Assembly: GCF_003853705.1 (NCBI RefSeq)
Contig: NZ_QTQI01000017.1
Location: 1-64,000 of the forward strand
Length of the DNA stretch: 64,000 bases
Reading direction: 5' to 3'
Source of the DNA: Burkholderia sp. Bp8992
Lineage (GTDB): Bacteria; Pseudomonadota; Gammaproteobacteria; Burkholderiales; Burkholderiaceae
Made by a program: the position numbers and the translations under genes
The notes under the pieces: generated by a model
Seen by the model: the letters and a program-made list of their open reading frames with translations, nothing else
Database searches by the model: none
What the model was told of the DNA's origin: nothing
Part shown: in pieces, positions 2,223-58,653 of the stretch
How the letters are laid out: each line of letters starts with the position of its first letter
Numbering within the stretch: position 1 is the first letter of the stretch

Positions 2223-2744
2223 ATGCCCTCCACCGCCCTCGACGACGACGCATTGCGCGAACTCATCCCCAGGCTGCGACGCTTCGCGCTCTGGCTGGCG
2301 CGCGACGTCCACGCGGCCGACGATCTCGTCCAGTCGACGCTCGAGCGCGCACTGTCGCGCTGGACGAGCCGTCGCGACGACGCGTCGCTGCGCAGCTGGC
2401 TCTTCACGATCCTGTACCGGCAGTTTCTCGACGGGAAACGCAGCGCGAAGCGCTATTCGTGGCTGCTCGGCCGCATTCGTGACGACGACGAAGCGCACTG
2501 GCCGTCCGCCGAACGCGAATTCACGGCGCGCGCGACGCTCGAAGCGTTCGGCCGGCTCTCGGACGAGCAGCGCAGCCTGCTGCTGCTCGTCGCGGTCGAG
2601 GGCTTCACCTATCAGGAAGTCGCCGACCTGCTCGAAGTGCCGATCGGCACCGTGATGTCGCGACTCTCCCGCGCGCGCCAGGCGCTGCGCCAGCTCAGTG
2701 ATGGCGAGCTTCCCGCTCCTTCTTTGCGATTGATGAAGAAATGA
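2223..2744 (+). CDS. ECF (extracytoplasmic function) RNA polymerase sigma factor
   Basis: This 173-residue protein has the two-domain ECF layout. Region 2 spans about residues 11-75, with the conserved AADDLVQ segment. Region 4 spans about 107-160, with a helix-turn-helix around YQEVADLLEVPIGTVMSRL. No region 1.1 or 3 is present. The ATG at 2223 is the only start that gives a normal ECF N terminus; the open frame upstream crosses the promoter. The stop overlaps the anti-sigma start (ATGA), so the pair is coupled. The matching promoters on both sides suggest it transcribes its own operon and the divergent peroxidase operon. A stress or oxidant signal is likely, by analogy with its target, but is not shown. 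Confidence 0.92.
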   Translation: MPSTALDDDALRELIPRLRRFALWLARDVHAADDLVQSTLERALSRWTSRRDDASLRSWLFTILYRQFLDGKRSAKRYSWLLGRIRDDDEAHWPSAEREFTARATLEAFGRLSDEQRSLLLLVAVEGFTYQEVADLLEVPIGTVMSRLSRARQALRQLSDGELPAPSLRLMKK

Positions 2745-3499
2745 ACACGCCTCCGAACGAACATGACCTTCAGGCCTATGTCGACGGCCAGCTCGACGAC
2801 GATGCGCGTGCCGCGGTCGATCGCTATCTCGCGCTGCATCCGGCGCGCGCGGAACAGGTGAAGCAATGGCAGCAGGACGCGCAGCGGTTGCGGGCAGCGC
2901 TGGAGAGCGTGCGGATGCCGGCCGATAACCCCGCGCTCGATCCGGCGGCGATTCGCGGCCGGCGGGCGGAGCGCTCGCGGATGCGGTTCGCGATGGCGGC
3001 CTCGTTCGTGTTCTGCGTCGGGTTGGGGACGTTCGGCGGATGGCAGGCGCGCGGGTGGAACGCGGCGCCGCCGATCGCGCCGATGAGCGATGCGGTCAAG
3101 GCTTACCAGATGATGGTGGTCGATCGGACGGCCAAGGTCGATTACCGGCCGACCGGTGCGGGCGATTTGCAGGGATGGCTCACCAAAGGCGTCGGCGCAT
3201 CGGCGAAGCTGCCGGATTTGAGCGCGGCGGGGTTCAGGCCGGTCGGTGGGCGGTTGTTCACAACCGACAGCGGCGCTACTGCTGCGATGGTGCTCTATGA
3301 GGATGATGCGGGGCGAACGCTGAGCTTCTATCTCCGGCCGGCGGAATCGAAACATCGGCTGCTGCCGAACGGGCAACGCGTGGATGGCGCGTTGCTCGCG
3401 CGGTATGGATCGGTGAACGGGCTCAATTATGCGGTGGTCGGGCCGGCGGGGAGTCTTGGGGAAAAGGCGGTCGTGCAGGCGCTCGATCAGCAGACTTGA
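2741..3499 (+). CDS. Transmembrane anti-sigma factor for the adjacent ECF sigma
   Basis: The product is 252 residues. A short cytoplasmic N-terminal domain (about 1-78) begins with the HDLQAYVDGQLD helix typical of anti-sigma domains. One membrane helix follows at about 82-104, then a periplasmic C-terminal domain of about 145 residues. The zinc-binding HxxxCxxC motif of ZAS anti-sigma factors is absent. The start overlaps the sigma stop by four bases. In this arrangement the protein holds the sigma factor at the membrane and releases it on a periplasmic signal. The signal is unknown. Confidence 0.85.
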   Translation: MNTPPNEHDLQAYVDGQLDDDARAAVDRYLALHPARAEQVKQWQQDAQRLRAALESVRMPADNPALDPAAIRGRRAERSRMRFAMAASFVFCVGLGTFGGWQARGWNAAPPIAPMSDAVKAYQMMVVDRTAKVDYRPTGAGDLQGWLTKGVGASAKLPDLSAAGFRPVGGRLFTTDSGATAAMVLYEDDAGRTLSFYLRPAESKHRLLPNGQRVDGALLARYGSVNGLNYAVVGPAGSLGEKAVVQALDQQT

Positions 3500-3584
3500 G
3501 TGATACGATGCGCGCCCGGCTGGAGGTCGGTGGTGGCCGGCAGGGCCTTATGCGGTATGACTCGGCGGACTTGAGTACGCTTGC

Positions 3585-4285
3585 GCTCATCGGTCGATTG
3601 CACAGCGTTCCGACTGACTTTGCCGGCTGGTTTTCCACATCGGTGGAGCGTGTTCGGTACCCTCACCTTTAGAATCACAGGGTTTCGAGTCGCTGCGGAG
3701 CAGGATGTCCACATCGATCATAGTGGTGCTGCATACGGACATCGGTCGGTTCGATCACCTTGGGTCGGCACAGCGTTTCGGGTTGTTTCGGCGCGCGATA
3801 TCCACACCCCCGTGAGATAACGCGAACATCCGCACCGAATTCGCTTACCCTCACCCGTTGACTGCACAGGATTTCGAGTGTCTTGGCTTCTCGATATCCA
3901 CAAGGCATTCAATCACGGCGGATCGCGCGAGCACTCTCCATATCACCCGCTCTATTTCGGCAAAGCCTTGTCAGAAAAGGCGTTCTGGCCGATTCGCGTA
4001 GCCGAATGCAAGGCGCTCACCGGTTCGATGCACAGCAATTCGACTGGTCGGGTGTGTGAGTTGTCCACATACGGGCCGCCGACAAGCGTACGAGACACGA
4101 CGCACATTCCGCATGCGTCCACGTCGTCGAGTCAGCCGTCTCCATCCAGTTGTGCGCTCGCGCATTCGGTTCGGCTCTTCACGGTCAGAATTCATCGGAA
4201 TCCACGCCTGGCCTGCGATCCGGCTGCGCGCTCACCTTCTGCCTTCACAGCGTTTCGCATCGTTTTGTGCCTTGGTTATCCACAT
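3585..4285 (+). repeat. Six-copy degenerate repeat array with DnaA-box-like cores
   Basis: No gene is credible between 3500 and 4317. Instead six units of about 55 bases can be aligned: 3585-3640, 3662-3714, 3753-3807, 3850-3903, 4015-4070 and 4231-4285. Each runs (G/C/A)-TCA(C/T)(C)-about 10 bases-CACAG-NN-TTTCG (slightly varied)-about 20 bases-TNTCCACA. The distance from CACAG to the last block is 29 or 30 bases in every copy. The last block is close to the DnaA box TTATCCACA; copy 6 matches it exactly. Spacing between units grows from about 20 to 160 bases. The spacers are unrelated in sequence as far as I can see. Confidence 0.75.
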
Positions 4286-4317
4286 GCGAAGGCCGATCAC
4301 CTCCACCGTCTCCGAAG

Positions 4318-4683
4318 TCACTTGGTCAAATAAGTCCCTAGAATCTCGCCCGTCTCCGGCGAAACTACGTAATGGATCGACTTCCCGAGCCGGTTTGCGT
4401 TGCCGAGCCCCCGCATGCCGGGAATCAGTTTCGCCATGAACGTAATCCCGATGACGTGATCCTCCGGCTTGGGATCGGCCCTCGCGGCACCTTTGTCCTC
4501 GATGTAGATCTCGAAGTTGCGCAGGTCCTGTCCGGTCTTCGCAAAGTCTTCATAGGCGGCCTTCAGGCCGAGCAGCGTCGCGGTATTGAGCTGGACGGAA
4601 CAGCGATGGACCCTGCCAAAATTCAATTTGATCATCGTGCTCTTGAAAATATCGGCCCCAGATCCGGCGAACGTACCGGTCAA
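4318..4683 (-). CDS. Hypothetical small protein, paralogue of the exported protein at 5402-5767; signal peptide apparently lost
   Basis: The frame encodes 121 residues from a TTG start. Its C-terminal half matches the protein at 5402-5767 closely: both share LNTAT, KLIPGM, LGNANRLGKSI and a SPE-GEIL ending. The paralogue begins with a signal peptide, but here the frame upstream of the TTG has no ATG before a stop. An ATG lies upstream in another frame, so a frameshift may have cut off the N terminus. The true start is therefore uncertain. No known family is recognised. The fold looks like one helix followed by a beta sheet, which is inference only. Confidence 0.5.
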   Translation of the reverse strand: MTGTFAGSGADIFKSTMIKLNFGRVHRCSVQLNTATLLGLKAAYEDFAKTGQDLRNFEIYIEDKGAARADPKPEDHVIGITFMAKLIPGMRGLGNANRLGKSIHYVVSPETGEILGTYLTK

Positions 4684-4753
4684 AGAGCGCGCAGGTGCTT
4701 GGTTGTTGCTGGGTATCTGCGCCGCGCGAGCACATGTCGCGCGCTGGCATCAC

Positions 4754-5077
4754 TTATCCCGTCTCGGACAGCGCCCTAAATTCACGAAGGCAAGCACTGC
4801 AGGTCGTTGTCAATAAACCGATCGCCGCCTCCATCGATTCGTCGTCGCTGAAGCGATAAACATCACCAGCCTCGTACGTCCCGCCCAAATCGACGATATT
4901 CCCTCTCTCCGATTCGAGCATGAAACCTGGATATTCGATCTCGTCGCGAACAAGCGTCAAAGGCACGACGCCACCATCGCCCCTCCAGTTCTGACGATCA
5001 TTGATGAGATGGCGCACGGCTTGCGTAACAAGCTCGCCGCCGCAGTATCCGTGATACGAGCAATGCACTAACGGCAT
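4754..5077 (-). CDS. Hypothetical small protein with two Cys pairs
   Basis: The gene encodes 107 residues. I chose the ATG at 5077 because CGGAGG stands five bases before it; the open frame continues to 5368 but looks non-coding there. Cysteines lie at 6 and 12 (C-x5-C) and at 93 and 96 (C-x2-C), which could form a metal site or disulfides. No family is recognised. It lies between the two paralogous small proteins and shares their strand. The gap to the gene at 4318-4683 is about 70 bases, so co-transcription is plausible. Confidence 0.6.
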   Translation of the reverse strand: MPLVHCSYHGYCGGELVTQAVRHLINDRQNWRGDGGVVPLTLVRDEIEYPGFMLESERGNIVDLGGTYEAGDVYRFSDDESMEAAIGLLTTTCSACLREFRALSETG

Positions 5078-5401
5078 GAAGCCTCCGTTGTTCTCACACC
5101 GGGTCTCGCGAATACAACTCGTATCGATGGCGAAGAAAAGCCATGTCGAACCACGCCCGCCCCTCTTTGTGCTACTGGCCGACCTTCGCTCAACTCGACT
5201 CGCGACCAGAACGCCGCAGGCGATCGTCGATTCGACAGGCAAGCTGATGACCGGGTGCGCTTCCGGCTGCTTCTGCAGCGGAAGCCCACTTGCTGGCCTC
5301 GTTCGGCTCTGCCGCCTGCGCATCCTCCAACGCGGCAGCGAGAAACGCACTCCGCTGGTTCCCGCCACTCGTCGGCCGCATAAAGCCGATTGCGTGATCG
5401 A
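5078..5401. other. Intergenic stretch, no supported gene
   Basis: Open frames exist on both strands but none has a ribosome site or a protein-like composition that I trust. One minus-strand frame (5381-5190) has an alanine-rich stretch and might be a remnant of a deleted gene. I see no promoter or terminator that I would call. Confidence 0.5.
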
Positions 5402-5767
5402 CTACCTCGCCAGATAGATCGCAAGGATCTCTCCGTTCTCTGGCGAGATGACGTAGTTGATCGATTTCCCGAGCCGGTTTGCGTTGCCGAGGCCCTTCAT
5501 TCCCGGGATGAGCTTTGCGGTAAACGATACGCCAATGACGTCCTTTCCATCGACACCTTCGCCGTTGGATGCCTTTCGTTCGTAGATGGACACTTCGAAA
5601 TTATTGATGTCCTGCTCGCTCTTTTCGAAGTCGGCATAGGCCGAGCGCAGCCCGATGGTTGTTGCAGTATTGAGGGTGACGTGATCGTTGTCCGCATCAC
5701 CAAAAATTGTTTTACTCATGGCAAGTACTGGAATCGTCAATAGAAGAAGCGGGGCGATATGCTTCAT
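5402..5767 (-). CDS. Hypothetical small exported protein, paralogue of 4318-4683
   Basis: The product is 121 residues from the ATG at 5767; a GTG three codons upstream is an alternative with GGGA before it. A signal peptide is clear: Lys at position 2, a Leu/Ile-rich core and a likely cleavage near residues 17-19. The mature part of about 100 residues has helix- and strand-like stretches, ending in KLIPGM, LGNANRLGKSI and a SPE-GEIL tail shared with the gene at 4318-4683. It is probably periplasmic. No family is recognised. Duplicated small exported proteins among unrelated small genes are common in immunity-gene clusters, but no toxin gene is present here, so that role is only a guess. Confidence 0.65.
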   Translation of the reverse strand: MKHIAPLLLLTIPVLAMSKTIFGDADNDHVTLNTATTIGLRSAYADFEKSEQDINNFEVSIYERKASNGEGVDGKDVIGVSFTAKLIPGMKGLGNANRLGKSINYVISPENGEILAIYLAR

Positions 5768-5842
5768 CGATGGCACATGATCGGTCCCATTACCAGTTCC
5801 GGTTGCGGGCGGTACCCGTGTCGCTCGCCGTCATCGATTGAT

Positions 5843-6181
5843 TCAGTCATGCCGTTCGATGACGTATTGTGCCGGCCCGCTCCATGCAACCGAACGGTAC
5901 GCGCCTCGAACGACACCGATCTCCCGGTAATACTCGACGAGTGCCTGCGGACTCCAGTCGCGGCCCGCGGAAAACAACGCATCGAGATCGATGAGCGCGG
6001 CTACGAGCGCCTGCCGGTCGTTGTCGTCTGCGATAGCACGTTCCCAACGATCGGAATGCCGAGCGAAACCCAACCGGATCAGTCCATCGGCCACAGCCAC
6101 CACGTCCGTGACGACAACCGCAACGTGGCCGGCAATCTCCGTCACCAGCAACTCATCAACGGGTGCGTTCATCGATCGCAT
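5843..6181 (-). CDS. Hypothetical small acidic protein
   Basis: The frame encodes 112 residues from the ATG at 6181, with a GCGGAAG site about ten bases upstream; an ATG three codons later is possible. The protein is mostly helical and rich in Val, Ala and Asp, with a YYREIGVVRGAYRSV stretch near the end. No signal peptide or membrane segment is visible. It starts 22 bases after the gene at 6204-6464, so the two are probably one transcript. I do not recognise a family. Confidence 0.55.
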   Translation of the reverse strand: MRSMNAPVDELLVTEIAGHVAVVVTDVVAVADGLIRLGFARHSDRWERAIADDNDRQALVAALIDLDALFSAGRDWSPQALVEYYREIGVVRGAYRSVAWSGPAQYVIERHD

Positions 6182-6203
6182 CGTCCAGTGTCTTCCGCTG
6201 TGA

Positions 6204-6464
6204 TCACCCTGCCTCCTTCGCGAGCCATCTAACGATTTCCGCGATGTCTTCGTCGGAGAGTTTCCCGACACGCTCGACACACACGCCGTAGTCGAGATCG
6301 AACTTCACGTTGAATCGCTCGCCCTTGTAGCGGCAACACAGGACCTCGGCTTCCGGTATCGACACGCGCTGCTCGAACACGATGTCGCCTGGATCTTGCT
6401 GCATCCGATGTACGACTGTGTCGATATCGAGCGCGTCGAGCCGGGTCAACGAAGAATCGGTCAT
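6204..6464 (-). CDS. Hypothetical small protein
   Basis: The product is 86 residues from the ATG at 6464. The frame stays open 23 codons further, but that part reads as intergenic. The sequence suggests a compact alpha/beta cytoplasmic protein: an amphipathic helix, several beta strands (VLCCRYKGERFNVKFD) and a final helix DEDIAEIVRWLAKE. No strong Shine-Dalgarno is visible, so the start is uncertain. It is the first gene of the small leftward block that ends at 4318. No family is recognised. Confidence 0.55.
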   Translation of the reverse strand: MTDSSLTRLDALDIDTVVHRMQQDPGDIVFEQRVSIPEAEVLCCRYKGERFNVKFDLDYGVCVERVGKLSDEDIAEIVRWLAKEAG

Positions 6465-6631
6465 GTGCCGTGAGCCCGTTCGCAGGGCCTTTGCATCCTG
6501 GATGCCCGCGATTCTACAGACATGACGGCTCACCTATCCCCCAAGCGCTTCACAGCCTCCTGATTCGTTCCTCTGCTCGCCGCACGCAGTGCATATCCCG
6601 GGCGGATCACAGTCGACGGACTGTGCTTATC

Positions 6632-6713
6632 CAAAGGTGTTAACAGGGTTCGTATATATACGTAGTGATAGTTAACAAGCGCTGTGCCCCACAGTGGATA
6701 ACCTCCGTAACGC
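6632..6713 (+). repeat. Conserved intergenic element, copy A
   Basis: The core is TATATATACGTAGT (6653-6666), 4 bases, GTTAACAA (6671-6678), 15 bases, GTGGATAAC (6694-6702). The same three blocks with the same spacers (4 and 15) occur inverted at 54731-54780. Similarity extends to an AAAGGT block on the left and to TACGC/AACGC on the right. The GTGGATAA block resembles a DnaA box. More such boxes lie nearby: TTATCCAAA at 6627 and TGTGGATAA at 6877-6885. The whole gap 6465-7010 holds no gene that I can support. Confidence 0.8.
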
Positions 6714-7010
6714 ACTGAATTTTCAGCGCGAAGCGGGATGCATAACCATGGGTGTGGCACGTGAACAGTGCCGCGCAGCACAGAACAACTTTTCGTCGAT
6801 TCGCAGCGTCGCCGACATATCCTCAATCGTTCCACTGTGAATCCAGAGGCTTGCAGGACGGTTATCCAGAGGGGAATGTGGATAACACCACAGCGCATCG
6901 ACGCGTTTTGCTGTGATGCGAACAGGTGAAGCCAACGCTCCCGGCATCGCCACGCACCATCGATCGTCAGCATCCACACGCGTCGATTCAAAAAATTTTC
7001 ACGAAGGGGC

Positions 7011-13804: not shown

Positions 13805-16800
13805 TCACCGCCCGGTGCCCGCCAGCGGCACCGGCGGCTCGAACAACGCATCGGCCTGCCTGACGCGCACGAAGCGCGCGGCGCCGTCGCCGTCCACCAG
13901 CGCACGGAAATGCGCTTCGCCGCATGCGAGCTTCGCACGCTCGTGCTCGCTCGGCACGGGGCCGTCCGTGTTCGGCGTATCGACGACGAAGTACAGCCGC
14001 TCGTCGCCGTCCTGTTCCGCGAGCACGGCCCAGTCCGGGTGGTAGCTGCCGAGCGGCGTCTGCACGCGGAACCACGCGGGCAGCTTCGCGTACAGCTTCA
14101 CGCCGTCGTGCGCTTCGAGCGCATCGGCGAACGCGCGCTCCGCGTCGGTCTCGCACACGACCGCTTCGTGGATCGACTTCTGTGCATCGGGCCGCAGGTT
14201 GCGCAGGTAACCGGTCAGCGCTTCGCTCTCGAACGATTCGAGCGCATGCACGTGGCGCTCGCCGAGCTTGCGGTACGCGATGCCCGCGACCAGCGCGTGG
14301 CGCTTGCAGCGGTTGATCGCATCGGCCGCGACCGCGATGAACTGCTGCGGATTCACGCGGAAGTCGTCGAGCCGGCCGCTGTCGGCCAGGATCGTCGCGA
14401 GCGAACGGCGCGTGAGCTGCGTGCGGTCCTGCAGCTCGGTGAGCAGGTCGGGCAGCGGCAGCTCGCCTTCGTCGAGCAGCACGGTGCCGGCACCGGCCAC
14501 CTCGATCGCCTCGATGCCGGCCTTGCCGATGTCGATCTCGGCCTTGCGCCACTGCAGCCGCGCACGCGCGATGTCCGGCGCGTCGTGCAGCGCGGCCGTG
14601 CAGTCGCGCACGAGCTTCGCGTTGTCGAACTCGACGCTGTACACGGTGCGATGCCGGATGCGATCCCACAACGCGCGGAAATCGTCGCCGAACACGACGG
14701 CCTTGCCCGACGCATCGCGCCGCAACGCGATCGCGCGGCGCTCGTCGGCGTTGCGCACCGCGAAGCGGCCCGACAGCTTGCGCAGCGTCGCGACGATCGG
14801 CGCACGCAGCATCTCGAACGCGTCAGGCAGCACCAGCGCGCTCTGGCGCAGCGCATCCTTCAGCCGGTCGAGCACCTTGCCCTGCGCGTCGACATAGCCT
14901 TGCTCGTGCAGGTGATTCCACAGCACGCGCGACAGCTCGATGCCGAGCGCATGCGCGGGGCCGTCGTCTTCCTGCACGGGCAGCGCCGCGAACTGGTGTT
15001 CCTCGACGATCCCGAACCGGATGCCGGTATCGGCCTCGATTTCCTTCTGCAGGTTCTCCGCGAACGACTCGTAGCGTTCGGTCGCGATCACGGTGAGCGT
15101 GTTCACGCCCGGGTCGCGCACGCGTTCGCCGTCCTGGTCGACAGCGAGGCGCAGCCCACGGCCGAGCGTCTGGCGGCGCTCGCGCTCGGTCTGGATGTCG
15201 CGCAGCGTGCAGATCTGGAATACGTTCGGGTTGTCCCAGCCTTCCTTCAGCGCCGAGTGCGAGAAGATGAACTTCAGCGGCGTGTCGAACGACAGCAGCG
15301 CTTCCTTCTCGCGCATGATCAGGCCGTACGCGCGCTCGGCGTTCTCGCGGGCCGCCGCGCTGCTTTCGCTCGTGTCGGTCCAGCCGCCCTTGCGGTCGAT
15401 CGAGAAGTAGCCGTTGTGCGCTCGCCCGACTTCGAGCGCGACGTCGACGCCGTCGAACAGCGCACGGTACGCCGGCACGCGCGCCGCGCGTGCATATTCC
15501 TCTTCGAAGATCAGCGCGTAGTCGCCCTTCACGGGCATCCCGTTCTCGTCGTAGCGGCGATAGCGTTCGACCGAATCGACGAAGAACAGCGACAGCACCT
15601 TCACGCCGCGCTCGGCGAGGCGCAGTTCCTTGTCGAGATGCTCGCGGATCGTGCGGCGGATCATCTCGCGCTGCACGGCGAGCGTGTCGATGTCGCCGAA
15701 CGCCTCGCCGAGCGACAGGAACGCCTCGCCTTCCGGATGACGCAGCTCGACGTACTCGGCACCCTTCACCGCATGCACTTCGCCGATCCGCAGCCCCGCG
15801 TACAGCGCGCGCTTGGTCAGGCGCTCGAGATCGTCGCCATCGGTGGCCGTCACGATCTGGCGCTTCACGCCGGCCGCCGTCGCGACGTCGAGCTCGACGC
15901 GCGCGCTGATCGCGCCGCGCCGGTTCGACACGCCGACGAGCCGCACGTACGGCTTGTTGTGCGCATCCTCGACAATCGCCGACGCGATCTCGATCTGCTT
16001 GACGAGCTTGCGCTCGTACGCGTCGACCGCGTCGAGCCGGTACACCATGTGGTGACGGTCGACGTGCGTGGCCGAATAGCGCAGCGTGCAGAGCGGCGCC
16101 ATCGCGGCGAGCGCTTCGCGCCCGCGGCCCTCGAGGCCGCCGTCGACGCTTTGCGGCTCGTCGACGATCACGATCGGCCGCGTGGCGCGGATCAGGTCGA
16201 TCGGCTTCTCGCCGCCGGTCTTCTCGCTGTCCTTGTAGAGGTTGTTGATTTCCTTCTTGTTGATCGCGGCAACCGTCATCACCATGATCTGGATCGCCGC
16301 GCTCGCCGCGAAGTGGCGCACCTGGCCGAGCTTCGCGGAGTCGTACAGGAAGTAGTCGTACGGCACGCCCGCGTACAGCGCGCGGAAGTGATCCTCGGTG
16401 ATCGCGAGCGTCTTGTGCACGCCTTCCTTGATCGCGATCGACGGCACGACGATCACGAACTTCGTGAAGCCGTAGCGGCGGTTCAGCTCGAAGATCGTGC
16501 GCAGGTACACGTAGGTCTTGCCGGTGCCGGTCTCCATCTCGACGGTGAAGTCGCGCGAGCCGGGCAGGCCGGACGGCGGCAGCCCGCCGCGCAGCTGCAC
16601 GTCGGCGAGATTGCGCGCGAGCGCGTCGTCGGTCAGCGACAGCCGGTTGCCGACGCCCTGTTCCGACACCGCGAAGCCGAGCGAGCCTTGCGCGGCGGCC
16701 GTCGTGCCGGGCGCCGCGTTCGCGAGCACGCTGAAGTCGCCGCGATACGATTCCTGCCCGCGAAACAGGTCGCAGACGGCGTCGATCGCCTCGCGCTGGT

Positions 16801-16831
16801 AGTCGAGATCCGCTTCGAAATGCAGCCGCAT
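13805..16831 (-). CDS. Type III restriction enzyme Res subunit; nuclease motif altered
   Basis: Res subunits couple a DEAD/DEAH-type ATPase motor to a C-terminal PD-(D/E)xK nuclease and need the Mod subunit to find their site. The 1008-residue product has Walker A METGTGKT (about 99-106), Walker B variant VDEPQ (223-227) and motif VI QTLGRGLRL. The C-terminal nuclease region keeps HPDWAV (931-936), but where family members have VVETKG the sequence reads VVDTPNTDG (949-957). Thus Glu is Asp951 and the catalytic Lys position is Pro953. Cutting activity may be lost. The ATG at 16831 overlaps the mod stop (TGATG); a longer upstream open frame lies inside mod and is a shadow. Confidence 0.93.
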   Translation of the reverse strand: MRLHFEADLDYQREAIDAVCDLFRGQESYRGDFSVLANAAPGTTAAAQGSLGFAVSEQGVGNRLSLTDDALARNLADVQLRGGLPPSGLPGSRDFTVEMETGTGKTYVYLRTIFELNRRYGFTKFVIVVPSIAIKEGVHKTLAITEDHFRALYAGVPYDYFLYDSAKLGQVRHFAASAAIQIMVMTVAAINKKEINNLYKDSEKTGGEKPIDLIRATRPIVIVDEPQSVDGGLEGRGREALAAMAPLCTLRYSATHVDRHHMVYRLDAVDAYERKLVKQIEIASAIVEDAHNKPYVRLVGVSNRRGAISARVELDVATAAGVKRQIVTATDGDDLERLTKRALYAGLRIGEVHAVKGAEYVELRHPEGEAFLSLGEAFGDIDTLAVQREMIRRTIREHLDKELRLAERGVKVLSLFFVDSVERYRRYDENGMPVKGDYALIFEEEYARAARVPAYRALFDGVDVALEVGRAHNGYFSIDRKGGWTDTSESSAAARENAERAYGLIMREKEALLSFDTPLKFIFSHSALKEGWDNPNVFQICTLRDIQTERERRQTLGRGLRLAVDQDGERVRDPGVNTLTVIATERYESFAENLQKEIEADTGIRFGIVEEHQFAALPVQEDDGPAHALGIELSRVLWNHLHEQGYVDAQGKVLDRLKDALRQSALVLPDAFEMLRAPIVATLRKLSGRFAVRNADERRAIALRRDASGKAVVFGDDFRALWDRIRHRTVYSVEFDNAKLVRDCTAALHDAPDIARARLQWRKAEIDIGKAGIEAIEVAGAGTVLLDEGELPLPDLLTELQDRTQLTRRSLATILADSGRLDDFRVNPQQFIAVAADAINRCKRHALVAGIAYRKLGERHVHALESFESEALTGYLRNLRPDAQKSIHEAVVCETDAERAFADALEAHDGVKLYAKLPAWFRVQTPLGSYHPDWAVLAEQDGDERLYFVVDTPNTDGPVPSEHERAKLACGEAHFRALVDGDGAARFVRVRQADALFEPPVPLAGTGR

Positions 16832-18849
16832 CACAGGCTCCGCACGCGCTTCACGCCGTGCTGCTCGAGCAGCGCGGCGAGATTGAGCTTCGCGACGTCG
16901 TCGACGAAGCCGCTGTCGCGGAACAGGCAGGTGACGTCGCGCGACGCGCCGGTCGCATCCAGCAGGTCGACGATGCCGTCGGCGAGCGGGCCCGCGTCGT
17001 CGCGCGAAATGCGCGCATCGAAGCACGCGACGATCGAGCGGCCGATCAGGTGCACGGTCTTGCCGGCCACCTGGTGATGCTCGACCGGCGTGCACAGGTC
17101 GAGGCCGAGCTTCAGCGTCAGCTCGGCGAGCAGGTCGTCCTCGGTGCGGCCGGTCTTCACGTGCTCGACGGATGCGAACAGCGCGTGGTCGAAGTCGTCG
17201 CGGCGCGGGTCCCACTCGATCACGTTGGTCGTGTCGAGCCGGTACACGCGGAAACCGAGGTCGCCATAGCTTTCCGGATAGTCGCGTGCGACCTGCTGCG
17301 CGGCACGGCGCAGGCGTTCCTTGGTCACTTCGGCGAGCGTCAGCGGCTTTTTCAGCTTCGCGCAGAAATCGGCGGCCGCCAGTTGCGTCTTGTCGCGGCG
17401 GTCGAGCGCCTCGGGCAGCTGCACGAGGATGTAGCGCCGCGCGCCGCCGTCGGTCGCGTTCACCTGCATCACCGCGTGGCCGGTCGAGCCGGAGCCCGCG
17501 AAGCAGTCGAGCACGATGTCGTCGCCGCGCGTGCACCAGCCGATCACGGCCGCCGCGAAGTCGACCGGCTTCGGCAGGTCGAACGGAATGCCGAGCGTCT
17601 TCAGCAGCGCGTCGTCGGAGCCGGCGAACGGCAGCACCGACGGCACGTTCTCGTACATGTTCTCGTCGAGGTAGTAGATCCGCTGCGGCTGCGTGGTTTC
17701 ATCCGCGCCGAATTCGATCTGGCCGCGCTCGATCAGCGCCTGCATCGTCGCGGGCGGGTTGCGCCAGCCGCGCGCCGGCATCGCGCACGGCTTGCCGGTG
17801 ACGGGGTGGATCAGCGGCGTGAAATACTCTTCCGGCGCCTTCTTCTTGTTCGGCCAGGCCATCGACACGAGGCGGTACACGCGGCCTTCTTCCGACAGCC
17901 GGTCGTACATCACCTCGCCGCCGGACAGGTTGGTCTGCGCCTTCATCCATGCGCGGTATGCCTTCTGCGCGTCCTTCGCGTTGCCGCTGCGGTACACGGC
18001 GTCGTGCGCGGCGTCGAGCATGCGCTGCGCATTGCGCTTCGGGCGCTTGAGCGGCGCCTGTTCGAGCAGCGTCTCGGCGTTGCGCGCGAACAGCACCAGC
18101 GATTCGTGCTGGTACGCGACGCCGCGCGCGTCGCCCTTCGGGTTGCGCTTGTCCCACACGGCCACGCCCAGCTCGTTCTCCTCGCCGAAGATCTCGCGCA
18201 GCATCAGCACGAGCGCATGCACTTCGTGCTCGTCGATGTGCACGGCGATCAGCCCTTCGTCGGACAGCAGCGCGTGCGCGAGCTTCAGGCGCGGATACAT
18301 CATGTTCAGCCAGTCGGTGTGGAACCGGCCGTTCGCCTCGGTGTTGGTGCTGCGCTTCACGCCGCCCTGGGTCTGCCCGGTCATCGCCAGGTAGTGGCGG
18401 ATGCTGTCGCTGAAATCGTCCGGATAGACGAAATCGCTGCCGGTGTTGTACGGCGGGTCGATGTAGACGAGCTTCACCTTGCCGGCGTAGCTCTTGTGCA
18501 GCAGCTTCATCACGTCGAGGTTGTCGCCCTCGATCACGAGATGGCGCGTGTCGTCCCACGCGACGCTGTCGTCGGGGCAGGGTCGCAGCGTGCCCGTCGA
18601 CGGCGTGAGCGCAGCCTGGCGCGCGCTGCGCTTGCCGTGCCAGTGGAAGCCGTAGCGCTCGTCGGCGTCGCCGACCGTGCGGTCGCCGATCAGCGCCTTC
18701 AGCACGTCGACGTCGACCGACGCGCCGTTCGGGCCTTCGGTCACGAGTTCGGGGAACAGCGCCTTCAGGCGCGCGACGTTGTCGGCGGTGAAATCCGTCG
18801 ACATCGCCTGCGGGCTGGCCGCATCGAGTTTCTGCATCGTCTTTTCCAT
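16831..18849 (-). CDS. Type III DNA adenine-N6 methyltransferase Mod subunit
   Basis: The Mod subunit recognises the target site and methylates an adenine using S-adenosylmethionine. The 672-residue product is beta-class in motif order: catalytic motif IV DPPYNTG comes first (131-137), the variable recognition region follows, and the SAM-binding FAGSGSTGHAV motif lies near residue 460. The start at 18849 gives the N terminus MEKTMQKLD. No simple-sequence repeat is present in the 5' part, so phase variation by slippage is unlikely. It overlaps res by one base. Even if Res no longer cuts, this gene can still mark the genome. The 5' gap to the porin terminator (18850-19080) shows no gene. Confidence 0.93.
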   Translation of the reverse strand: MEKTMQKLDAASPQAMSTDFTADNVARLKALFPELVTEGPNGASVDVDVLKALIGDRTVGDADERYGFHWHGKRSARQAALTPSTGTLRPCPDDSVAWDDTRHLVIEGDNLDVMKLLHKSYAGKVKLVYIDPPYNTGSDFVYPDDFSDSIRHYLAMTGQTQGGVKRSTNTEANGRFHTDWLNMMYPRLKLAHALLSDEGLIAVHIDEHEVHALVLMLREIFGEENELGVAVWDKRNPKGDARGVAYQHESLVLFARNAETLLEQAPLKRPKRNAQRMLDAAHDAVYRSGNAKDAQKAYRAWMKAQTNLSGGEVMYDRLSEEGRVYRLVSMAWPNKKKAPEEYFTPLIHPVTGKPCAMPARGWRNPPATMQALIERGQIEFGADETTQPQRIYYLDENMYENVPSVLPFAGSDDALLKTLGIPFDLPKPVDFAAAVIGWCTRGDDIVLDCFAGSGSTGHAVMQVNATDGGARRYILVQLPEALDRRDKTQLAAADFCAKLKKPLTLAEVTKERLRRAAQQVARDYPESYGDLGFRVYRLDTTNVIEWDPRRDDFDHALFASVEHVKTGRTEDDLLAELTLKLGLDLCTPVEHHQVAGKTVHLIGRSIVACFDARISRDDAGPLADGIVDLLDATGASRDVTCLFRDSGFVDDVAKLNLAALLEQHGVKRVRSL

Positions 18850-54490: not shown

Positions 54491-57507
<3,017 letters not shown>

Positions 57508-58014
57508 AAAAATGTTTTGCAGATTGCAGGCTCGACCGCGTCGCGATTCGCTGAATGACGGCCGGCATCATTTCGGGCCGAAATCGTTGCCAGTCGTCCT
57601 GAAAATCTGTGGATAACCCAATATTCCGCTGCAAAGTCAACGATCTGTGCACGGGATAACCCGGTGGATCGATGCCATTCGACCGATGGCCGATCCGAAC
57701 AGGAAAATGCCGGCGCGCCCCCTTCGGCGGGCGCGCGGCATTGCAGGCACAACGAAAAATTTCAGTTATCCAGCGATTTTCCACAGAATGCAGGGGATAA
57801 CTTAGCTGTGCGATTTTCCGCTCTCGCTTAGAATGTCGGCTTTGCGGACACCGGAACGACGCGTGTCTCTCCGGTCGCCGCGAACGCGACCGCCGCGTGT
57901 GCCTCGCGACGGCCGTGCTGACGCACTCGAGAGAGAGCGTCTGTTTTGAGATAGACATTCGATCTCCACACTACGGCCGCTCGGCAACCCGGGCGGCGGC
58001 AAAGCGAAAAGACT
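57508..58014. other. Intergenic region with DnaA-box-like sites and a long hairpin
   Basis: About 500 bases without a gene. A TGTGGATAA site lies at 57608-57616, with TTATCCAGC at 57766 and a TTTTCCACAG at about 57777. A long GC-rich hairpin (ATGCC..GGCAT, 57707-57741) has no T-run on the plus strand. A likely promoter for the next gene is listed separately. Confidence 0.55.
57806..57834 (+). promoter_or_regulatory. Possible promoter of the MarR/Cys gene
   Basis: The -35 CTGTGC (57806-57811), a 17-base spacer and -10 TAGAAT (57829-57834) are visible; the -10 is good, the -35 is weak. Confidence 0.4.
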
Positions 58015-58653
58015 ATGAGCGAAGGCGTTTACGGGAATCAGGCTGCGGGACGTGTGACCCACAGCCTGCTGCGGTTGAGCACGGCCATGCGGAGCGAGGC
58101 ATGGGATTGGGCGGAAGGCGCTGGCCTCACGCCGACGCAAGGTGAGATTCTCGTGCTGCTGCTGCAACGCAAGGGCCCGATGCGGCTCGGCGAGATCGCG
58201 CGCGAGACGCAGCTCACCGCGGCCACCACGAGCGATGCGGTCAGCACGCTCGAGACGAAGGGGCTCGTCGAGAAGCGCCGTGCGCTGGACGACGGCCGGG
58301 CACTGGCCGTGCGCCTGTCGGCGCGTGGCCGCACGGCCGCGAAGAAGGCACTGCAATGGCCTGAATTCCTGACGAAGGCGGTCGGCAAGCTCGGCGCGGA
58401 CGAGCAGGGCACGCTGTATCGCGCGCTGCTGAAGACGCTGCGCGAGCTGCAGGTGGCCGGCGCGACGCCGCCGCAACGCATGTGCGTGACGTGCGCCCAC
58501 TTCCAGCCGGGCAAGCTGTCGAAGAAGACCGTGCATCACTGCGCGGCGCTCGACATCTCGATGACGGACAGCGATCTGCGTCTCGACTGCTCGGTGCAGG
58601 AAGAAGCCGACGCGGCGACGCAGAAGAAGACCTGGAAGATTTTCGCAGGCTGA
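58015..58653 (+). CDS. MarR-family regulator with C-terminal Cys/His cluster
   Basis: The 212-residue protein has a normal MarR winged helix (about 15-145, recognition helix around TAATTSDAVSTLETKGL). The C-terminal 60 residues are unusual: Cys157-x2-Cys160 with His162, then His174-His175-Cys176 and Cys192. This pattern could bind a metal ion or an iron-sulfur cluster and so make the regulator redox- or metal-sensitive. A glutamine amidotransferase gene follows 25 bases later, so it probably shares the transcript. Confidence 0.85.
   Translation: MSEGVYGNQAAGRVTHSLLRLSTAMRSEAWDWAEGAGLTPTQGEILVLLLQRKGPMRLGEIARETQLTAATTSDAVSTLETKGLVEKRRALDDGRALAVRLSARGRTAAKKALQWPEFLTKAVGKLGADEQGTLYRALLKTLRELQVAGATPPQRMCVTCAHFQPGKLSKKTVHHCAALDISMTDSDLRLDCSVQEEADAATQKKTWKIFAG

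Follow-up and report, generated by a model that had tools for sequence, protein, structure and literature searches.

What is the function of a series of diverged repeats that keeps a fixed internal spacing in a non-coding part of a Burkholderia chromosome? The sequence studied comprises positions 1-64,000 (forward strand) of contig NZ_QTQI01000017.1 from Burkholderia sp. Bp8992, and this whole 64 kb stretch is referred to below as the window. At 3584-4285 on the forward strand it contains six diverged repeat units, all in the same orientation, which are flanked by a frame ending at 3499 on one side and by a small reverse gene at 4318 on the other. A sequence-only reading had taken the array for a bipartite site or a small transcript under selection, with a second block resembling a DnaA box. 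The locus is of wider interest in two respects: the timing of replication in bacteria with several chromosomes is understood in few systems, and two such arrays on chromosome 1, together with a different array on the second replicon, offer deletable elements for testing initiator titration and coordination between chromosomes.

The repeat unit is approximately 57 bp in length and is composed of three blocks: CTCACC, CACAG-N-GTTTCG after 8-9 nt and TATCCACA after a further 18-19 nt. Its consensus reads CGCTCACC-N8/9-CACAGNGTTTCGAGT, followed by a variable stretch and G(A/T)TATCCACA; within the CACAG block, copy 1 deviates to TTCCG and copy 5 to ATTCG. A scan of the window that allowed up to three mismatches in the 18 fixed letters and a gap of 18 or 19 returned exactly six matches, with none on the other strand, whereas in 40 first-order Markov copies of the window such matches averaged 0.025 per copy and never exceeded 1. 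When the gap was relaxed to 0-60, 14 weaker pairings were added, every one of them within the array. The six-copy array is therefore real, its units being the only matches in the window at that spacing (Table 1). The distance between the CACAG and TCCACA blocks is constant, as the sequence-only reading had claimed, but it amounts to 30-31 bases from start to start and not to 29-30. Similarly, both blocks of the proposed bipartite unit were recovered, but its two-part layout was not, since the third block, CTCACC, had been missed.

Table 1. Positions of the features discussed. Gap denotes the number of nucleotides from CACAGNGTTTCG to TNTCCACA; positions refer to the window unless a genome is named.
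Feature	Position	Strand	Remarks
Array unit 1	3584..3640	+	CACAG from 3601; box TTTTCCACA, gap 19; 47.6 bits
Array unit 2	3660..3714	+	CACAG from 3676; box ATGTCCACA, gap 18; 44.5 bits
Array unit 3	3755..3806	+	CACAG from 3769; box ATATCCACA, gap 18; model positions 4-56 matched; 40.4 bits
Array unit 4	3848..3902	+	CACAG from 3865; box ATATCCACA, gap 18; 41.8 bits
Array unit 5	4014..4070	+	CACAG from 4031; box TTGTCCACA, gap 19; 43.6 bits
Array unit 6	4229..4285	+	CACAG from 4246; box TTATCCACA, gap 19; 46.2 bits
Origin-like patch	6627..6885		Four DnaA boxes and GTATATATACGTAGT stretch
Type III restriction subunit (Res)	13805..16831	-	Upper end estimated from how far the profile match extends
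Type III DNA methyltransferase (Mod)	16834..18849	-	Probable BCAL3494 ortholog
Probable chromosome-1 origin	54536..54790		Three DnaA boxes, three TGCACAG 7-mers, AT-rich stretch
Second origin-region DnaA-box pair	57608..57785		Boxes at 57608 and 57777; GC skew changes sign there
Second-replicon array	G041 C2:1169659-1173165 (L116:4657-8166)		Counterparts in G009, G011, G022, G023, G037, G054, G065

The CTCACC block is located 15-16 nt upstream of CACAG according to per-column counts and shows no mismatch in 160 of 187 units (four of six in the window). Units were selected by their CACAG and TCCACA blocks, and CTCACC played no role in the selection; bias is thus absent only from the gap, CTCACC and the base that follows the box. 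The motif TGCACAG is found within the second block in 89 of the 187 units, including three of the six in the window. The spacing is also conserved in related species: of 210 block pairs matched loosely in 31 loci and the first 10 kb of the window, with gaps of 5-44 permitted, 187 had a gap of 18 or 19, and the claim of a constant internal gap combined with variable intervals between units was borne out.

The units are restricted in their distribution. Using a sequence-only profile (R1) on whole genomes, units were found in 52 of 65 Burkholderia genomes and were absent from 13; this count is composed of 26 of 31 genomes (E<=1e-5, stricter filters), 26 of 32 (E<=1e-6) and neither of two, G018 and G037 (E<=0.1). 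With the same profile, none of 218 genomes representing 24 further genera in the family gave a match (E<=1e-5, stricter filters). An exact-pattern scan of 84,980 species returned 62 stretches, of which 61 were in Burkholderia records and one was in Microbacterium; the latter is a single unit and probably a chance match. The genome-wide profile search that had been suggested as a check thus found a motif that is clustered and, among the genomes of the family scanned, limited to one genus, and not one that occurs at random.

Ten genomes were listed site by site, and seven of these carried units, nearly all of which form two clusters on the contig that bears dnaA: a larger left array with 11-15 matches per genome and a right array, corresponding to that in the window, with 3-6. 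Outside the two clusters, one lone match per genome was present in six of the seven genomes, in addition to two weak matches in G009. The lone match approximately 0.9-1.0 Mb from dnaA falls within an aminotransferase coding sequence, as identified by eye in G041, G056, G009 and G010 (a four-genome inspection outside which the lone matches of G011 and G065 fall), and is probably due to chance. The left array is located 215-302 kb from dnaA in all 23 genomes tabulated, and the right array 16-61 kb from dnaA in 16 of 18; the two exceptions, at 298 kb in G010 and 635 kb in G059, are read as rearrangements. These distances were tabulated from rounded coordinates, for genomes other than G003, G013, G025 and G031 on the left and other than some, such as G063, on the right. 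In G041, GC skew and DnaA boxes place the origin near 123-127 kb and dnaA is found at 39 kb, so that both arrays lie on the same replichore there; the distance from dnaA to oriC is approximately 82-85 kb in G041, G022 and G054.

The sequence-only reading had placed the array between an ECF cassette and a block of small genes, but its relevant surroundings seem to be the replication origin. Two small reverse genes adjoining it (4318-4683 and 5402-5776) gave no Pfam or PADLOC match, and the frame at 2741-3496 gave no Pfam match. The two small genes resemble each other by eye. For the left array, a link to a neighbouring gene was considered and rejected: a glutathione-transferase-like gene is located downstream in six of seven contexts (names read by eye), but the upstream neighbours vary and the order is reversed in L035.

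Conservation within the unit was assessed from orthologous arrays of 11 genomes in one orientation, namely the window and the ten longest matches, chosen among 31 loci. The box block had a mean pairwise identity of 0.991, the CACAG block one of 0.906 and CTCACC one of 0.893 (the label of block one being one base off in unit 2), compared with 0.63 and 0.78 in the two inter-block stretches and 0.747 in the spacers. The blocks are held while the intervening DNA drifts, which argues for selection on a DNA site and against decay of a tandem duplication. This part of the sequence-only reading was upheld, also by the similar place of the array relative to dnaA in 16 of the 18 genomes mentioned above.

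The third block of the unit leads to the initiator protein DnaA. The window contains 17 DnaA boxes with at most one mismatch to TTATCCACA, whereas 40 Markov copies contained 2.6 on average and 6 at most, and nine of the 17 fall within 3500-7000, where 0.14 would be expected. Five of them belong to the array, in which five of the six units have a box at this threshold, four to an origin-like patch nearby and five to the probable origin, and three are found elsewhere. This concentration supports, by context, the proposal that the TCCACA block is DnaA-box-like. In the 7.7 Mb genome of G041, WTRTCCACA occurs 60 times (reversed control, 46); eight of these occurrences are packed within 1.2 kb in the left array, three are in the right array and 12 are in a chromosome-2 array. 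In both genomes inspected, a single box (<=1 mismatch) was present at the dnaA locus.

Judging by its sequence features, the origin of chromosome 1 probably lies in the window. DnaA boxes are located at 54536, 54551 and 54732 together with an AT-rich TATATATAC stretch at 54.5-54.8 kb, the GC skew passes from weakly negative values to positive ones near 57-58 kb, and G041, G022 and G054 share the box spacing of 15, 181 and 169 bp. A DnaA-box cluster has been noted near nt1 of B. cenocepacia chromosome 1 (Du et al., 2016, PMC4948915), and the MarR-like gene at 58015 in the window would fit BCAL0003, which is near nt1. The origin-like patch, 2.3 kb past the array, repeats the 169 and 15 bp box spacings of the origin, and the array model matches it weakly at 6876-6929 on the reverse strand (14.8 bits, E 0.0054). 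Between this patch and the origin at 54.5-57.8 kb the GC skew scatters about zero, as it does in the matching part of G041; the skew looks as if both the patch and the origin had once served as origins.

Given the structure, conservation and position of the arrays and their association with DnaA-box clusters, the explanation that is preferred here, by analogy and with some reserve, is that the arrays are origin-linked non-coding DnaA-binding loci that restrain initiation at chromosome 1 in the manner of datA in Escherichia coli. Each unit would be a composite DNA site with its last block as a candidate DnaA box, and the array would bind large numbers of DnaA molecules shortly after replication of the origin region. 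Arrays of DnaA boxes that are copied early after initiation are suited to titration or to datA-like inactivation; the capture of DnaA would accordingly leave less free initiator or would stimulate ATP hydrolysis, as E. coli datA does. The effect would be negative, helping to keep chromosome-1 initiation to once per cycle, and the CACAG block, which is a methyltransferase target in B. cenocepacia, may tune the binding. In E. coli, the crowding of DnaA boxes near oriC has been argued to favour titration (PMC12371093).

Several known systems resemble the arrays in part. datA is likewise a non-coding cluster of DnaA boxes that is located away from oriC at a conserved relative distance (PMC4585315, PMC5010248), and a conserved distance from the origin region is also a property of the left array in the genomes tabulated. 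Unlike in datA, the Burkholderia boxes are part of a repeated three-block unit with fixed spacing, and two arrays share one replichore; the likeness is one of layout and position. In Bacillus subtilis and Streptomyces, clusters of DnaA boxes around oriC are thought to restrain initiation. The Burkholderia arrays are also origin-proximal clusters of such boxes, whereas their unit is a composite with CTCACC and CACAG and was seen here in Burkholderia only. The DnaA boxes and CTGTGCA 7-mers described for the origin region of B. cenocepacia chromosome 1 lie in the same chromosome region, but in the parts of the text examined the 57 bp unit goes unmentioned, as do the two arrays (Du et al., 2016, PMC4948915); its supplementary maps may show the right array as DnaA boxes. 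In searches of the open-licence literature, neither the unit nor any of the arrays was described in the titles and abstracts returned, which is weak evidence of novelty.

Among the observations against control of DnaA by the arrays is the absence of units from 13 of the 65 genomes. Two of the 13 genomes without units, G022 and G054, were examined and have an unchanged origin layout, and the arrays are thus dispensable. When stretches of the unit-less genomes G022, G054 and G017 were scanned with the model at E<=5 (the right side of G022 and G054 and the vicinity of the glutathione-transferase gene in G054 and G017, with the left side of G022 excluded), just four weak matches of 7-13 bits were obtained, all of them at origin boxes.

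A serious rival, although a rather unlikely one, is that the units are recognized by another protein, such as one involved in nucleoid organization, segregation or the timing of division, which would touch the TATCCACA core, the array serving as a mark of origin-proximal chromosome 1. A plain DnaA box has no need of the first two blocks, which suggest that a second protein, or another one altogether, is involved; the three strictly spaced blocks consist mostly of sequence other than a DnaA box. The strict consensus TTWTNCACA fits only two of the six units in the window, the others having A at position 1, G at position 3 or both, and this is counted against DnaA. Furthermore, the array boxes, to judge from their letters, avoid the CACAG methylation motif: the base after TCCACA is G in one of 47 units (the aligned set, from 55 non-redundant units), whereas four of the five boxes of the window origin read CACAG. 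The arrays are also replicon-specific, as would suit another protein. However, the array boxes adjoin origin-like DnaA boxes both in the window and in G041, and the left array has no candidate gene tied to it, its upstream neighbours differing among the seven contexts.

The CACAG block can be related to a known enzyme. In B. cenocepacia, the type III methyltransferase BCAL3494 is reported to methylate CACAG at the fourth base, and almost every DnaA box of the origins in this species to end in CACAG (PMC7364216). The block is present in all 47 aligned units, which were selected partly by CACAG. The window encodes a candidate for the CACAG enzyme between the array and the probable origin. Its type, its partner gene and its location make this methyltransferase a probable ortholog of BCAL3494, and it is 97.9% identical to that of G041. 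As a determinant of array presence the enzyme was rejected: a PF01555 frame (692-778 aa) was found in all 15 genomes, eight of which are without units, and was located on the dnaA contig in 14 of the 15. In the B. cenocepacia methyltransferase mutant, exponential growth was unchanged and the impact on replication was called limited by the authors (PMC7364216), which weakens the methylation part of the datA-like explanation. The nucleoids of this mutant were larger relative to the cell (PMC7364216).

The second replicon carries an array of a different kind. On a contig without dnaA, TTGTCCACA and TGTTGGCAAGNNTGTGGATATCC are found about 5 nt apart, and the 40 bp unit has inverted DnaA-box-like ends around TTGGCAAGC. 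A search for the second half of this unit succeeded in all eight genomes searched, with 3-9 copies each and none in the reversed control; the array is present in three genomes without chromosome-1 units. It is located approximately 0.79-0.91 Mb from the chromosome-2 iterons in five genomes, the contig being marked by the iterons, and in G041 it flanks beta-lactamase-like and LysR-like genes (names by eye).

A connection between the two chromosomes has been considered in the form of a checkpoint resembling crtS of Vibrio cholerae, a chromosome-1 site that communicates with replication of the second chromosome. The chromosome-2 initiator RepA, through a CTCACC iteron half, and DnaA would bind the chromosome-1 units, the replication of which would license chromosome 2. 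This idea is speculative and is regarded as quite improbable. The RepA iteron of chromosome 2, ctCCCGAAAAacCTCACCTtt, does contain the CTCACC of the first block, and the B. cenocepacia origins are reported to segregate in the order chromosome 1 then chromosome 2 (PMC4948915); matches to the iteron were found in eight of eight genomes and, in the genomes listed, are clustered on one replicon. However, a 6 bp match would arise by chance with a probability of approximately 0.2-0.4 for the lengths compared (own estimate), the iteron half CCCGAAAA is missing from the units printed, and G022 and G037 have chromosome-2 iterons without units, so that the units do not accompany the second chromosome throughout. 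In addition, Hi-C data for B. cepacia are described as showing ori2 in contact with a large part of chromosome 1 and not with one focus (PMC13342612). The checkpoint sequence of V. cholerae is reported to be bound by RctB, whereas the letters shared by the Burkholderia array are limited to CTCACC. Iteron matches spaced 23 bp apart, or close to multiples of this distance, also occur in L043 (G009 C2:1498500-1503500) and L045 (G023 C2:3192000-3197000), approximately 0.19-0.21 Mb from the main chromosome-2 iteron cluster.

More improbable still is a replication-timing switch in which the unit would combine a RepA half-site (CTCACC), a site of adenine methylation on one strand (CACAG) and a DnaA box that avoids this motif, and would couple chromosomes 1 and 2 through a once-per-cycle mark. 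Since CACAG is not symmetrical and every unit in the window array faces the same way, one sister would be methylated and the other would not after passage of the fork.

The small-transcript branch of the sequence-only reading was not sustained, and it is very hard to credit that the units are tandem small RNAs, one for each unit. Repeats of about 57 bp with a strand sense might suggest this, and one of eight single-strand folds was somewhat stable (z -1.47), but the other seven were no stabler than shuffles and RNAalifold gave no base pair on either strand of the 47 aligned units. No Rfam match was found within the array, and a consensus scan of it detected neither promoters nor terminators (0.3 and 0.6 expected, respectively). 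Equally little credence is given to the array as a neutral relic of tandem duplication, which is suggested by recent duplication with matching spacers in some left arrays (for example L029), but not by blocks that are better conserved than spacers, an internal gap that is constant although the intervals between units vary and a position that is similar across the genomes tabulated. In the right array of loci L012, L013, L015, L017, L019 and L024, approximately 0.4-0.75 kb of extra DNA is located between the early and the later units.
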